Of a stretch of 64,000 bases of DNA, positions 47,194 to 59,500 are shown piece by piece; the first letter of the stretch is position 1, and the number at the start of each line of letters is the position of its first letter. A program made the position numbers and the translations under genes. The stretch is from Watersipora subatra (lineage: Eukaryota; Bryozoa; Gymnolaemata; Cheilostomatida; Watersiporidae): contig NC_088714.1 in the NCBI RefSeq assembly GCF_963576615.1, positions 34,628,643-34,692,642 on the forward strand. Direction: 5' to 3'. Under the pieces are notes generated by a model, which saw only the letters and a list, made by a program, of their open reading frames with translations, was not told the DNA's origin and made no database searches.

Positions 47194-47440
47194 CTACATG
47201 AACATTAAGGATTAAATTTTAGAGAAACTCGATGATGTCAGTTTACATCATAAGCCATCCAATGGTCTTCATTAGCATTGCGTAGCTGCATATCTGTGAG
47301 AACAAGGGTTGATTTAGATCATTGATTGACAGATGAAAGAACAGAGAAGTGTTAAATTGTACAGCTTGAGCTTGGCCTCCTCAGTTATCGCAAAGTTCGC
47401 TGTCATACAGCATGAAGTGTTGATTACATAGATTGACATC

Positions 47441-47500
47441 ATGGCTAAACACTCTTTCTTTCTAGCCATTATCCTCCTCATAACAACTCTCTCCATCAAG
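47441..47500 (+). CDS. TLR: Toll-like receptor exon 1 (signal peptide)
   Basis: ATG at 47441 in context ATCATGG (A at -3, G at +4). It encodes MAKHSFFLAIILLITTLSIK, a short basic start and a strongly hydrophobic core, then donor AAG|GTAAGT at 47501, phase 0. Ten further identical donors follow every 36 bp, all in phase 0 with no stop. The exon could therefore end at any of 47500 + 36k for k = 0 to 10. Confidence 0.88.
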
Positions 47501-50500
47501 GTAAGTATCCTCATCATAATTTCCCTCTTCATCAAGGTAAGTATTCTCATCAGAATGACCATTTCCATCAAGGTAAGTGCTCTTGTCATAACTACCCTCC
47601 TCATCAAGGTAAGTATACTCATCATAATGACCATTTTCATCAAGGTAAGTACTCTTGTCACAATGACGCTCTTCATCAAGGTAAGTACTCTTGTCACAAT
47701 GATGCTCTCCATCAAGGTAAGTATTCTTGTCATAATTACCCTCTTCATCAAGGTAAGTATACTCATCATAATGACCATTTCCATCAAGGTAAGTATTCTT
47801 GTCATAATTACCCTCTTCATCAAGGTAAGTATACTCATCATAATGACCATTTCCATCAAGGTAAGTATTCTTGTCATAACAGTCCATCAAGCACAAAGAC
47901 TATATACAATTTCTAATGTGGAATACAATAAGTTTCTATGCATGTCTAAACATTTTTATAGAAGTTGACAGCAAGAATGGGTTATCAACCGTGTATGGTA
48001 GGGAGCTGCTACTGTACAGTACCAGGTGTATTAGACTGTTCAGGACAAAGACTCACCACTTTTCATCCGTCACAAACTGACATGAACAGACTAGGATTGA
48101 TTCGTGTTCTCAAACTCAACAACAATAATCTACAGCAAATACCTACACTGAACATGTTCACGGAGATTCACACCCTCGACCTCTCAAATAACGAGCTTAC
48201 AAATATTCCTGCTGGAGTTTTCTCCTCTCTAGGACAGCTCTTACATTTGGACATTTCCTTCAATAATATAACTTTATCGGAAAGAACCATCAGAAGAGAA
48301 TCATTTCAAGGTTTGACAAATCTTAAAACATTGAGGTGAGTCATATGACCAGGTTACTATCTAATCTAGTACTAGTTACCTGTATGTTTAACTAGCTTTG
48401 ATAAAAGTACGGAGGAGACTTGCCAACAGGTAACTAATATTTACAAACTTGTAAACCTACAGCAACATAGCGCTTCTAAAGAAATATCAAATCCCAATTT
48501 ACCTATCAAGACAAAAGCATGATAGATAATGCAATTTCAAATTTTCAAATGTAATTTCTTTGTATTTCTAAAATTTAAACACTGACATACTGTTAGCCAT
48601 TAGCAGCCAGCTTTGCATATCTTCTCTGAATTGGCACATCTTGAAGTATTATTGACGCTAGAGTGCAATCAATTATGCTCTGATGACCTGAATACTTGGT
48701 TGTTCTTATCGAAAGAGTCTGAGACAAGGTTGGGTGGGGAGGAGAAACAAATGAAAGAAAAAACAGCACATGTTTAATTAGTTGTTTAGCATTTCACCTT
48801 GGAGGAGCATCTACTGTATTTGGTTCATTTTATAGCATTTTAACAATCAAAGTTCATTAATGTCTGACAATACATTTTAAATGGTCTTATTTACTGTGTG
48901 TTTGTACTATTACTTTCAATATATCTTTAAGCTGCGCCACATTCCTGGAGTGAACAAACGCAGCCAGAATGGTTATGATTGGTCAGCTTTAAAACCAATG
49001 AAAAGAGTCGCTGGGCATCACTAAGCTAATAATAGAAGACATCAATCCAATCATATTATCTTGTCTACTTGCCAAAGCCTTTGCATACCATATCTATATG
49101 TGCTGCCATGACATGTATCCTCGTGATGCTTGCCACCAGCTGACCTTTTTATTAGCAGTTTTCTTATGATTGCGCCTGTGCTATTTACTTCCCTTGACAC
49201 CTTTCTGCCATAACTGCCTATATCACTCAGGCTGCTTACTGTTTATTTGTACATTGTGTTATGGACTTGTTAAGTTATAAAGTCATTATGTGATACGTTC
49301 ATTCAGTCATAGAGCTACAAATCATAAAGTCATAGAGCCATCAAGTCAGTATCCTTATTTACTTTCTTGTTATTGCATACATGGCTGCATGCCGGTGCGC
49401 TGTGGCAGTTTATATTTAAAAAACGTCTTATCTTAAGCATATCATTTTCTACTATGTACTTGAGCGGAGTGGCACTAGCAGCGTTTTGAGCTTTTTAAAT
49501 AAATGAATTGCAGTCATACTTCGGCTTGCGAACATTTTTGATCTCGATTCAAGTCGGACTTCAACCAGAAAATTTGAAATTTCTCACTTCAAACTTTGAC
49601 TAAAAGGCTTTTGACTAAACCGAAAAATGCCTTATATGTTTTTACATTACAATCGGTAAAAATGAAGGACAAAATGTTTCCGCTAAGTTTTTTATATTTC
49701 ACGCAATCTTTGCTAGGATACATTACCGTACTCTTGTATTAGATTTGTTTCAGATCGTAACCTTAGCATAGGTTGACCTTCACTACTTAAATGTTTCTGT
49801 TAGAATTGCTAAAGATAAAACTTACGAAATTCTTGTTTTTTTTCAGGATGTTAGGATATTTTTTATAAAATTAAAACACACGTCTATTTCTGTAATTTTT
49901 GATTTATATATCCAGTACACCAAGCACTGAGTACACAAGACTCGGGTATGAGTCGCTACAGATACAGCAGTACAGTAGGCTATGTTCCCCAACCTAGTGT
50001 AGTTTATTAGGCTAACAGATTTTTTGTGAGACAACTGCTGTATTTCACACATTACCCGCTCTCCTATTACACGCATGTATCAGTTTCTGGTATGAAGGTA
50101 AAGGACAGCTTTGAAAACAGAAAAAATAGTTTTAGATATCAAACCGATCACTTTTTAAAGCACATCAATTATATAAGTACTTTTATCATATATTTCAGTA
50201 CATCAGAGTCTTGGCTTTCGAATGAGCCTATACTCTATACGCAAAGAATAATAGAACTATGAAAAACAGGGTGTCTACAGTATGTCCTGCAATAAAAAAA
50301 CCCTTGGTTGTGGTTCCCACAATGCGATGTCATAATTATCATTTAGCTTTAGGTCATCGATCCCTTTCGCTGCCATTGAGGCTGCGCTTTTCTGTAACAA
50401 TCGGTGCTGTTAAACCCAGAGAGCGCTAATCATAAACTAGCATTATAGATAATCAACAATGCCCAGGGATTGTGCTAACGCCCGACCAATACAAACACAT

Positions 50501-53500
50501 GTTCTGGGTTATTAGATTTCGGGTGATTTTTATAGTTTACTTTTTCATTCTTTCGTTCATTTTGAACATTTATAGTAATTATTATTTCATTGTTTTATAT
50601 GATGGCATTGTTTGTCCCATACAAAAATGATTAATAACTTGATTAATAACTAACTAGTAACTAAATATCAAAATGAAAGAAAGTATAAAAATTAAAATAT
50701 TTTTACCGTATTATATTCGAATAAGTTACAGTATATAGAAAATAGAAAATAGGTGTATTGGACAGTTAAATTCATCACTTTCTGTATGATACTAGCTTAT
50801 AGACAGATTAAGTTATTTACAGTATGCTTCTCTACTTTGAACAACCCTCGCACTACTGTGAATCAACCCCAACGATTGATTTAATTCAATTGACTTCTAC
50901 AACAAAATTAAACAAAAACAGAAATGACTACTAAAAACATACCTGGTTGTTAACCACCCATGGTGGTAAAGGTAATAAAATCACATCGATTAATTTGTGA
51001 CCTGTTGTGGCGTGGCCCTGGAACTATATGTAGATTGCACTCTTGCGAGACGAGACGAGACGCATTGCTTGAAATTAATTAGCCTCAGTCATGCCCTTCA
51101 ACATCACAATAAAAAGAGAGGGCTAGTGCATAATATCATCGGGAAAATATAATATGGCACTTGGAATTTAAGTTATTTATCATAGAAATAATCTGTTCAT
51201 GGAGAGCTAATGACACTGATTCCTTTGTCATCTTCATTGGTTCTCTGGAGTTGTCCTACCTTTGCCTGCCACTAACGTCATTATCGTAGTTGACAAATAT
51301 AAGCGGTATGCGATAAAAATAAGTGGTAAAAGCACACAACACCGAATATGAAAATTGTGACGTCACAATTTCTGAGCCTATACCAGTGAACATTTCTGCG
51401 GTAGAGCTTTGGGGAAATCCTATAAGCATCAACCAATGTCTGTCTCACCATGTCAAACAATGGCTCATTTGACAGCCAAGATATTGAAGAACCTGAATAA
51501 GCTGAAACAGTACTTATGTAATTGATGTGCTTTAACTAGCCTTGATGAATGGATTATGGTCGAAAACTGAGGTTTCACCGTAATGTGTTGAAGCTGTCTT
51601 CTGCATATTATCATCAACTACCTGTTCAGTGCGTGTTCAGCATAAACCTTTGAAAATATTTGTCATTTTCTAGTTTTAAATTAGTTGCCCAACGATACAT
51701 TCTGATTTTATGGGAGGGTTAAATTAACTGCTGCCTCTAACTGAATATTACTTGACCCAGTTGGAACTAATCAATTGCTAATATGAATATTGAGAATTGG
51801 ATCAAAAAGTCAGACAAGGCAGTTCATCCTCACTCAAGCATAGGATGATCTGCCTAGAATAAACCTACTTCCTAGCATGTTTGTCCGCTTGTTTTTACGC
51901 TTCTGTTTGATAATTATAAAGAACTATCGCCTGAGGGTTTATTACACCCCGTCACCAAAGGTCAATATATTTTTAAGCTATGCCACATTCCTGTAGCAAA
52001 CAAGCGCAGCCAGGATGGTTGCGATTGGTCAGCTTTAAAACCAATGAGAAGAGTCGCTGGGCATCACTAAGCTAATAATAGAAGACATCAATCTACTCGT
52101 ATAATCTTGTCTACTTGCTTGTGTATCATTATATGTATATACCCGTATGTGCTGCCATGACATGTTTCCTCGTGATGCCTGCCACCAGCTAACGGTTTTT
52201 ATTAGCAGTTTTCCTATGATGACGCCTGTGCTATTCACTTCTCTTGACACTCTTCCACTACAACTGCCTGCTATAGAGTCATTATGTTATAGAATCATAA
52301 ATTCACAAACTCATGAGTTCATAGTCATTAAGTCCTATAATGATATAGCCATTAAATCATAGAGTCATCAAGTCATAGAATCATCAAGCTATTAAGTCTT
52401 TGTCTTGAAGTAATTTAGTTAAAGCTCCATTAAGTCAGAGAGTCAGTCATCAAGTTATATAAAGACATAGAGCTGAAATCATTAACTTATAGAGCCATCT
52501 AGTTACTAAGTAATACATGTAAGTTTCAAGAAACATAAAAAGGAATACCAAGGGTTGAAGAAGGCATCATTATCATTGCGCAAGGAAAATCGTTAAATCG
52601 TTACGCGTAATGATCAATAATGCTAGTTATTAACCAAAAGAAAGCGCTTTCAGCACGAGTGTCTTAACCAATGTAATAACTATTTGCTATTGTATTCCAT
52701 GTATTAATGGTTAGGCTCACCGCCCTTAGTTGTGGAGGTCCCGAGATCAAATCTAGTGGCAGATGGAATTTTCATTGCTAGACTTTAATGATTATAACTG
52801 GACACAGGGTTTAACAAAAGACAAACACTATGATTTATATATAGATATTGTAGTATTTGCAATTCCAATTAAAAGCTATAATATAGCGAACTTGAATTAT
52901 TATATTTTATTTTTTAGTGAAAAGCATTGTTAAGAGCTTTATTAACAGTGGTTTAAATCAGAAATATATTAAGCTCAACATCACTAACAAAGAAATAAAC
53001 AGCTTTATATTTTTGCGTAACTCCTGTTTGCACCCCAGAAACCATAGCTAGGTCTCTGTTACATATCTAAACAGATGCGTATGCTGTTCAGGATGAAGCA
53101 GAACAGGAGACCTACAGAGTTTGACTACGAAGCTGTTACAGCGCTGAATGAGACGCTAGAGGAACTATATATTACAGGCACACCAACATTCAGCACGCAA
53201 CTCTCACATCTCTCTCATCTCCACACCCTCAGCCTCGGTAAGCACTTTCTCTTTGGTTGCCTTCAACAAACCTTCATCAAGGTAAAGTCTATATATGATT
53301 GTAGTGCTATAGAGTAGTCGTAGTTGTACTAGCGACTAGCGATGTGAGTCGGGGTACATGTGCCGTATCAGCTTTAGACTTTTAACATAATTTGACTAAC
53401 ATGAGGTGCTGCAGTTCAGCATCAGCTCATGAAGACATGCCTATATTGTGACTATCATGAGGTGCTGCAGTTCACACATCAGCTCATGAAGAGATGCCTA

Positions 53501-56500: not shown

Positions 56501-59500
56501 ACCTGTAGACCATCACTTGTTGCTCATGTTGCAGGAGGGTATGAATGCAATGTGCCATCTCTAAAAGCCAATGATCAGCCAACCTTGTCTAAATTACCGT
56601 TAAAGCGTTTTTCCGCCAGAAACTGTAAGATCCAAAAGATTGATCGAGCATTTCTGCAGAACTTCTGGACAACTCTAGAAAGGTTGGATCTCTCTTGTAA
56701 TCATTTGACTGATCATTTAATAGAAATCACACTTGGCGTGGGAAACAAACTAGAAACATTAATCCTAGATAATATTAATCGGGACGGAATTGTGTGTCCG
56801 TGGAATGAGACTCTCAACGGGTACGTAGCAAACCTCAAGGGAACACCTCTTCAAACACTTTCCCTCCAAGCCAACCAAGTGAAAGAGGCAACAGGGATAA
56901 ACCTTAGAGAATTGTTTCCTGAATTGAAATATCTTGACCTTAGCCAGAATGACTTTAGCGGAGTTGCATTTTACATTGCGCAAACTGTGCAAGGTCAACC
57001 GGTACCCAAACCAGACCTAACTGTGTTTTACAACAAAGATTTGCAGTTACCAGCTCTCAGGTTTATCGGACTTCAAGCTCTGACTACCGCCTTTGACTGC
57101 GGAGGATATGACGAGAGGATATTAAATTGTAATGAGGACAGCCCTTTATTCCTGGATGACGATTTCTATTGGGATCATAATCACCAACCAGACATTGTGG
57201 ATTTCCAACTTTTGCTTGAAGCTGTTAGCACTCTTTCTCTCCAAGACCAACTATGTTTGGGCTATGGGCTATGCTTCGATAGTGTTGACCCGATAAGCCA
57301 ATTAATTGCTAATATACAGGATATGGCTGAGCCTCACACATCTTACAAAGCTATAAATAATACTATATATTATCTACTTGCAGAATCTCAGCGCTCAAAC
57401 GAAGATATTGTTACCTACATTCAAAATATCAGGTTCTTTCTTGTCAATCTCACTACCGCTGCCATTGGATACAATAATTTCGTAACGGAGTCCAAACAGG
57501 AGATTTCAAGCGATTTATGTTCAAACATTTATTTGTATCCCAACAATGCCGACACGTTGAATTTTTCTTATTCAAATTTTGCTTTTGGCGCATGTAGTCA
57601 GGTGGTTGGATTTAAATATCTAACCACCATTTCCTGTATAGAATGCCGTATGCGAGGTTGGAACATAGATACATTTCAGCATTTACCACTCCAACACCTA
57701 GAAATGTCGAGAAATGAACTAGGACAGTTCTTAAGAGAAGATCTCGAAGCGGAGCGGTTAAGAAGCACCCCTTTATTGAGAAGACTCGATCTTGGAGAGC
57801 AACAAGATGGAGGAATCCTGTACTTTAGCAATCGCATGATTCTCGCTAACCATCCTAATCTCACACATCTAGATTTACATGGAAACCACTTGATTGCTTG
57901 GAACATTTCTATCAGTGAGAACAAAGAGCTTCTTTTTCTTGACCTCCGTGACAATGAGATATTCTACATCGATGAGGTCTTCCGTAATGAGATCGACGAC
58001 CAAAATGAAGAGACTAATCTAGAAGTAAAACTTGCTGGTAATGATGTCCGATGTACAGATTTCACTTCGTTACCATATATTCACTGGCTTATCAACTCTT
58101 CATCGGTGGTAGATACACAAGATATCGTATGCGCTGAAGTTGAAATGACGATTACGCAATATCTCATGTCCGAACAGAAACCCGCAAAGGATGACATGAA
58201 ACCTCATGAAAATTTACCTTTGAACGCGGCATTTATAACTGGAATCGCTGTCTTGACGATTCTTGGGTTACTACTGATAGGCTGGTTCTACCGACATACA
58301 ATCATTTATAAATGGTACCGATGGAGAAGGCCTGCCCACGCGAGTTACCAGACAGGTGATCAAGAGATGGACCAGCTTGCCAACATCAACTCCTACCTTA
58401 GCTACTCAGACAGATACGTAGACGATGTAATTGGTGAGTTAGTTTACCATTTTCTTGTCATACTCATAGCGGTCTCTTTGTAACTATAGACATCATAATC
58501 ACACTTTCGCTTGATCTGAGCGTTATAACCACGATCAAGTTTTCTCAACTTCCGTTTTGAAACATCCCGCCATTTACAGTAGATTACCTCAAACATCAAC
58601 AACAATTACAAATAACAGGAACAAGTCGATACTTTCAGATAAAATCTACTAAAATCTTGTGTACGTTCATCTTTAATGCAAAATCATTTGGTCGGTTTAG
58701 TTTATTGTTAGGTGATGTGTTCGGAAATCATAGAGTTATTATCAATATTAGCTTTAGTTTATTGTCAGATGATGTGTTCAGAAATCATAGAGTTATTATT
58801 AATATTAGGCTTAGTTTATTGTCAGATGATGTGTTCGGAAATCGTAGAGTTATTATTAATATTAGATTTAGTTTATTGTCAGGTGAAAATGTGTTCGAAA
58901 ATCATAGAGTTATTATTAATATTAGATTTAGTTTATTGTCAGGTGAAAATGTGTTCGGAAATCATAGAGTTATTATTAATATTAGGTTTAATTTATCGTC
59001 AGGTGATGTGTTCGGAAATCATAGAGTTATTATTAATATTAGATTTAGTTTATTGTCTGGCGATGTGTTCGGAAATCATAGAGTTATTATTAATATTAGG
59101 TTTAGTTTATCGTCAGGTGATGTGTTCGGAAATCATAGAGTTCTTATTAATATTAGGTTTAGTTTATCGTCAGGTGATATGTTCGGAAATCATAGAGCTA
59201 TTATTAATATTTGAGTGAGCATCCATAATGAAGCATCAGCTGTGTTTTGGTGCTCATTTTATTATATTGCCAACCATTCTAAGTGGCATTCCAAAAGTGA
59301 CAGCTGGCGGTCCTTGAGGAAGCCACTACAGCCTTTCTATTCAATTGACTTAGCTAATGCCAAAAGTCTGAGTATGTCAGCATGTACATCTGGGCTTCCT
59401 GAGTGACCTTTTTGCAGCATTTTTGTATTACAACCTAGCAACAAAAACTGTAGAACAAGTTGCCAGTTTTTAAAAACAGACAATTTTATTCATGCACTTG

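Follow-up and report, generated by a model that had tools for sequence, protein, structure and literature searches.

Background

Splice-donor minisatellites are already known as a kind, from the human interferon-induced gene IFI6 (G1P3, 6-16), in which Turri, Cuin and Porter reportedly described in 1995 a minisatellite supplying multiple splice donor sites. In IFI6 the array, close to the exon 2 end, consists of 26 copies of a 12-nt unit and hence stays in frame. Earlier studies in which a 5' splice site was duplicated reportedly found the intron-proximal copy to be favoured.

The IFI6 isoforms arise from two downstream repeat units, with one predominant product of 130 amino acids, according to the passages of PMC4526556 drawn on here. 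When two tandem donors both match the consensus, the first is predominantly used, and when their strengths are unequal the stronger dominates, as stated in the sections consulted of PMC6783452, which describes a reporter library of designed constructs with two donors in cultured cells and also mentions earlier conflicting evidence. In tandem-site clusters (TASS), where neighbours lie within 30 nt by definition and about 99% of sites are in clusters of 2–5, one site dominates (PMC8055015, in the excerpts used). Another related process is intron gain through the tandem duplication of AGGT segments, for which a 24-bp case in fission yeast is cited in the part of PMC4974935 used here. In the literature searched by title and abstract openings, no case of a splice-donor minisatellite in a Toll-like receptor (TLR) was found.

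The donor array and the gene that carries it

The window, meaning the whole stretch of 64,000 nucleotides that was analysed, corresponds to G000:C7:34628643-34692642 in a genome of 783.7 Mb. It contains five exons with fitting phases that give an intact Toll-like receptor of 960 amino acids (Table 1), and this gene model bears out the original prediction of a TLR with a signal-peptide-like first exon. The LRR ectodomain is recognized by LRR_4 (67.3 bits) and LRR_8 (61.6 bits; Pfam cut-offs 27), a hydrophobic segment with a best 19-residue mean of 2.46 precedes the TIR, and TIR_2 is matched at residues 814–905 with an E of 1.2e-05 and 26.2 bits, just below the Pfam cut-off of 28. An in-frame TAG is present at 47429, 5' of the ATG. 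Tandem repeats make up 17% of the window, several of them in introns of the TLR gene, and their periods include both multiples of 3 and others that are not.

Table 1. Coordinates of the gene, its donor array and comparable arrays (plain numbers are positions in the window; a slash marks the cut point of a donor)
Feature	Position	Strand	Remarks
Exon 1, coding part	47441..47500	+	MAKHSFFLAIILLITTLSIK, signal-peptide-like, phase 0; ATG 47441, 60 nt
Repeat seed: last 30 nt of exon 1 plus GTAAGT	47471..47506	+	consensus match
Ten full 36-nt units, k=0–9	47501..47860	+	donor GTAAGT after AAG opens each unit
Last unit, k=10	47861..47891	+	donor intact; body 31 nt, then CAC in place of GT (lost twelfth donor)
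Acceptor AG, intron 1	47960..47961	+	exon 2 of the C7 paralog begins at the corresponding place
Exon 2, LRR N-terminal part	47962..48335	+	phase match
Exon 3	53092..53237	+	phases join; counterpart exon in the C7 paralog identical at 145/146
Exon 4: LRRs, transmembrane-like segment, start of TIR	56535..58433	+	phases, Pfam, C7 paralog
Exon 5: remainder of TIR and stop codon	59536..59939	+	phases, Pfam, C7 paralog
L052, DNMT1 exon end	G000:C1:1460406-1460538	minus	six identical AAG/GTGAGTTG donors, period 25
L058	G000:C1:1754476-1754719	minus	34-nt units with CTCTACAG/GTAAGTGG after an exon-like open frame (...KTKLAYQGHLYR)
L062	G000:C1:3480598-3483294	minus	28-nt units with CAG/GTAAGT; at least 95 overlapping matches to CAGGTAAGT x3

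A string search of the + strand of the window found AAG/GTAAGT at 47501+36k for k=0–10 and at no other place, exactly as had been predicted, and AAGGTAAGT likewise occurs eleven times, always at 47498+36k (k=0–10), while GTAAGT alone occurs 22 times, 11 of these in the array. The eleven donors all lie in phase 0, and the expectation that every one of them joins exon 2 (47962) in frame and without a stop held for each k from 0 to 10, as did the expected loss of GT from the twelfth copy. Some other parts of the description needed amendment. The array is identical in its donors but not in its units, the ten full ones sharing 25 to 36 of 36 positions pairwise, and although the first donor does lie at the end of exon 1, the repeat itself already starts inside the exon, at 47470 (TRF: period 36, 11.4 copies, 0% indels). 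Each step does add 12 residues, for possible leaders of 20 (k=0) to 140 residues (k=10), but the added residues are not all hydrophobic, as there is an arginine in unit k=1. The best 19-residue hydrophobic window of the leader from k=1 scores 2.65, and the last donor leaves an intron of 101 nt.

Pairing with U1 was calculated with ATACTTACCTG as the U1 5' end, a sequence common to the four U1 loci read among the 42 matches listed. The near-best pairing that had been predicted was found at every one of the 11 array donors, with values of −11.7 to −12.5 kcal/mol, compared with −8.2 to −10.8 for the gene's three remaining donors; outside the array, GT sites reaching −12 on the + strand of the window number 2 out of 3741. 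The U1 snRNA cluster itself lies at G000:C5:45786606-45984104, with 42 above-cut-off matches among those listed, many of them about 1.37 kb apart. Elsewhere in the window, a 14-nt match to the array donor box occurs as CTTCATCAAGGTAAAGT at 53272–53288, about 45 nt past the exon 3 donor.

Seed, paralogs and age of the array

Over its last 30 nt, exon 1 agrees with the array consensus in 24 positions, a match reached by 0 of 100,000 shuffles, whereas the 36 nt upstream (47429–47464) equal the array unit at only 12 of 36. The repeat unit thus corresponds to the exon end plus GTAAGT, and this seed match upholds the earlier claim that a single splice site was expanded by repeat growth.

An inverted paralog is found 72 kb away on C7 (the pair is positioned at G000:C7:34676122 and 34748678), and both genes are intact, with no coding indels and 904 of 960 residues identical. 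This paralog carries an array of 44 units, spaced 36 or 42 nt apart, of which 42 have GTAAG and two ATAAG; copy number thus differs fourfold between the two gene copies (11 vs 44 units). All of its units are in phase 0, there is no stop from the ATG to exon 2, and its shortened last unit matches that of the window array. If its last donor were used, the full repeat leader would be 590 residues long. The first donor of the paralog, AAT/GTAAGTAT (GTAAGT), pairs with U1 at −7.3, and CAA/GTAAGTAT, present in 22 of 42, pairs at −7.5; the first strong donor is the third, AAG/GTAAGTAT, at −12.5, and 28 of the 42 GTAAG donors pair at just −7.3 to −7.5. Alignment of the two C7 genes gave long blocks that are 95–97% identical and some intron blocks at 84–90%, with dN and dS of 0.0276 and 0.0373 (NG86) or 0.0324 and 0.0245 (YN00). 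With dN/dS near 0.74 by one method and 1.3 by the other, selection on the pair may be relaxed or diversifying; these values give no verdict on the array.

The paralog on C10, in which exon 2 is 64% identical, has an apparent exon 1 of 23 codons in phase 0 that ends in one CAG/GTAAGT. An exon-end donor array was not seen in it, and its intron 1 has other minisatellites. One of these, with TTTTGTACAGACAGGAAGTAAT-type units (by eye) at G000:C10:31792937-31793720 (minus), lies near the exon 2 acceptor and possibly contains repeated acceptor-like sites. Since the C10 paralog is apparently array-free, TLR intron 1 seems older than the array, and duplication multiplied a donor that was already there. 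Both C7 genes have arrays ending in a shortened last unit, so the array is most simply older than the C7 gene duplication; in the simplest history, the C10 paralog would have split off first, the array would then have arisen, and the inverted duplication giving the two C7 genes would have followed. The separate 44-unit array in one paralog and the apparently array-free state of the other also mean that chance does not account for the window array and that an assembly artefact is unlikely.

Constraint on the donors and on the encoded peptide

The longest invariant run in the window unit covers 13 positions (CATCAAGGTAAGT), the donor box, with a P of about 0.0015–0.002 under random placement, uncorrected. 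The same test gave P values of 0.20–1.0 (uncorrected) for ten other arrays, hand-picked from the 49 TRF rows of the window and with out-of-register units dropped in three. For the C7 paralog units the longest run is 4 (P 0.59), and it is again 4 for the pooled units of both genes (P 0.22), while in the two C7 arrays together the donor hexamer holds 2 minor alleles and the remaining 30 positions hold 29 (permutation P 0.048). Conservation of this kind goes only part of the way to showing that every donor is under selection; it amounts to mild evidence that the donors may be kept in the window gene. There is no evidence for the encoded repeat peptide being kept, the variable positions of the window units being spread over codon positions 1, 2 and 3 as 5/5/5. 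The lack of stops was rejected as proof of coding, since four of the six frames are open in both C7 arrays.

A donor array in DNMT1 and the genome-wide picture

A genome-wide pattern search with AGGTRAGT x3 led to an exon of DNMT1, whose array unit consists of the last 19 nt of the exon and 6 nt of the intron (GTGAGT) and begins exactly at the exon end. The identity of the gene comes from phmmer (E 3.4e-36), and the genome search gave two matches, both in one gene. Beyond donor 0 the frame runs into a stop at codon five, and an in-frame join of DDVK to YLSNIRR is obtained with donor 0 only. If DNMT1 is functional in this animal, as is assumed, it must be produced by way of the first donor in a row of identical ones.

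Overlapping genome matches to AGGTRAGT x3 numbered 3194+2788, vs 268+350 for the reversed pattern, with 703+671 for the dinucleotide-matched control AAGTRGGT x3 and 544+622 for the reverse of that control. Among the matches listed on C1, there are 8 donor-pattern arrays in the first 3.5 Mb vs 8 control arrays in the first 25.5 Mb. For CAGGTAAGT x3 the counts were 196+252 vs 23+51, and among the matches listed all but 5 rows belong to one array. In 112 kb around the TLR genes, a non-random sample, single AGGTRAGT sites outside tandem repeats outnumber three control words roughly threefold (12 vs 4, 3 and 5), so that a large part of the excess may be due to real donors. A special targeting of donors by minisatellites across the genome is not claimed, as single donor-like sites are themselves in excess. 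Of the eight donor arrays listed on C1, DNMT1 is the one sure exon end. No evident coding exon was seen by eye before the first copy in L036, L042, L059 and L061, and for L060 and L062 the array start was not reached. The units of L058 resemble an acceptor tract plus a donor, and its exon-like frame had no Pfam match at E 0.1.

Which donors are expected to be used

The best explanation, to which a probability of about two in three is given, is a minisatellite whose seed was a splice boundary, with mainly the first donor used and some leakage to the in-frame donors behind it. The 30 nt of signal-peptide coding and 6 intron nt at the junction of exon 1 and intron 1 would have been tandemly duplicated and then amplified, each unit bringing a donor with it. 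As the remaining units are spliced out whenever the first donor is used, such an expansion would leave the main mRNA unchanged, and it would be tolerated in a minisatellite-rich region. In the window gene, most mRNA would come from the k=0 donor, with its 20-residue leader, and leakage would fall off over the next donors at 12 residues more for each. In the C7 paralog, where the first donor is AAT/GTAAGT, use would probably shift to the third, the first strong donor, and yield a 46-residue leader. The longer leaders made by leakage could matter, since from k=1 the leader is more hydrophobic over 19 residues than the transmembrane-like segment of the receptor (2.65 vs 2.46). Against this explanation, the invariant donor box of the window array (P 0.0015, uncorrected) hints at constraint there, and the donor spacings in both C7 paralogs are all divisible by 3.

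A different outcome would be that many donors are used, with a mix of 20 to 140-residue leaders tuning how far the receptor is secreted, anchored or retained, and copy number acting as a heritable dial. All 11 window donors are intact, in phase and well matched to U1, the 42 GTAAG sites of the paralog are all in phase 0 with 36- and 42-nt spacings that preserve the frame, and the hydrophobic leader from k=1 and the invariant donor box of the window gene point the same way. This outcome is nevertheless unlikely, given that the unit changes are unbiased over codon positions, that four of six frames are open, that donors are lost or weakened in the C7 paralog, that the first of equal donors is preferred in what was used of PMC6783452, and that the exon-end donor array of DNMT1 is out of frame. 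The original prediction of a ladder in broad use, or of one that tunes anchoring, accordingly went unsupported: codon positions show no bias, and DNMT1 and the reporter library both favour the first donor. Doubtful too is the wider proposal that minisatellites repeatedly seed on exon ends here (the TLR pair, DNMT1 and possibly more) and that the TLR ladder is kept as an expandable dial of leader length, whose copy number (11 vs 44, perhaps also differing between individuals) sets how much of the receptor bears a membrane-anchoring leader. If the last donor won instead, the mRNA would encode the full repeat leader, of 140 residues in the window gene and 590 in the C7 paralog; the earlier studies of site duplication would lead one to expect this, and the last donor does still leave a 101-nt intron. 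It is very improbable, as equal donors gave the opposite result in the sections consulted of PMC6783452, such a preference could not yield DNMT1, and the unit changes lack a codon-position bias.

Repeats are error-prone, and the gene might normally start at another exon or the array be an assembly error, but the chance of this is slight: the first Met follows an in-frame stop, the C7 paralog has the same exons and phases together with a separate, differently built array, and the C10 paralog has an apparent phase-0 exon 1. The strong pairing at 11 sites 36 nt apart, so rare among the other GT sites of the + strand, could also mean that the donors serve as clustered U1 snRNP sites, which would increase expression or hold back early polyadenylation, with splice choice being secondary. 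This seems highly improbable in view of the weak pairing of 28 of the 42 paralog GTAAG donors. The least credible account is recursive splicing within the array, in which the pyrimidine-rich tract and CAAG/GTAAGT would make each unit boundary an acceptor and a new donor at once. The pyrimidine share before the ten internal AAGs is indeed 0.67–0.87, vs 0.53–0.67 at the four acceptors of the gene, but six of these ten sites stand at 0.67, which in a sample of 2000 AGs is the 90th percentile; the acceptors would moreover be AAG, and with 36 nt between neighbouring units, steps over at least two units would be needed.

Significance and relation to known systems

Together these loci form a natural series of identical, evenly spaced donors, with two paralogs that differ in length and in the order of donor strength, plus an out-of-frame counterpart in DNMT1. 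The disputed rule of choice among equal 5' splice sites would thereby become readable from the ordinary RNA reads of one animal. Tandem growth at a splice boundary could at first be silent and later supply leader variants of an immune receptor.

The TLR array resembles the TASS clusters in having several successive donors of one exon, one of which is expected to dominate, but its 11 donors stand 36 nt apart, beyond the 30 nt that defines such clusters. With AGGT-mediated intron gain it shares short tandem duplications bearing AG/GT, whereas here the duplication did not create the intron, as the C10 paralog apparently has the same phase-0 intron without an array. The DNMT1 array is alike in being made of an exon end and the first 6 intron nt, with identical donors, and differs in its period of 25, in being out of frame and in the stop after donor 0. 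The likeness to IFI6 lies in an array that adjoins the 3' end of an exon, starting in the window gene inside exon 1, in a donor consensus within the units (11 of 11 in the window, and GTAAG in 42 of 44 in the C7 paralog), and in a unit length that keeps the frame in both TLR arrays, as that of IFI6 is understood to do. Unlike IFI6, the TLR arrays, known here from genomic sequence alone, belong to an unrelated gene and animal; their 36/42-nt units combine 30 nt of a signal-peptide exon with 6 nt of intron, each step adds 12 residues, and two paralogs carry 11 and 44 units.
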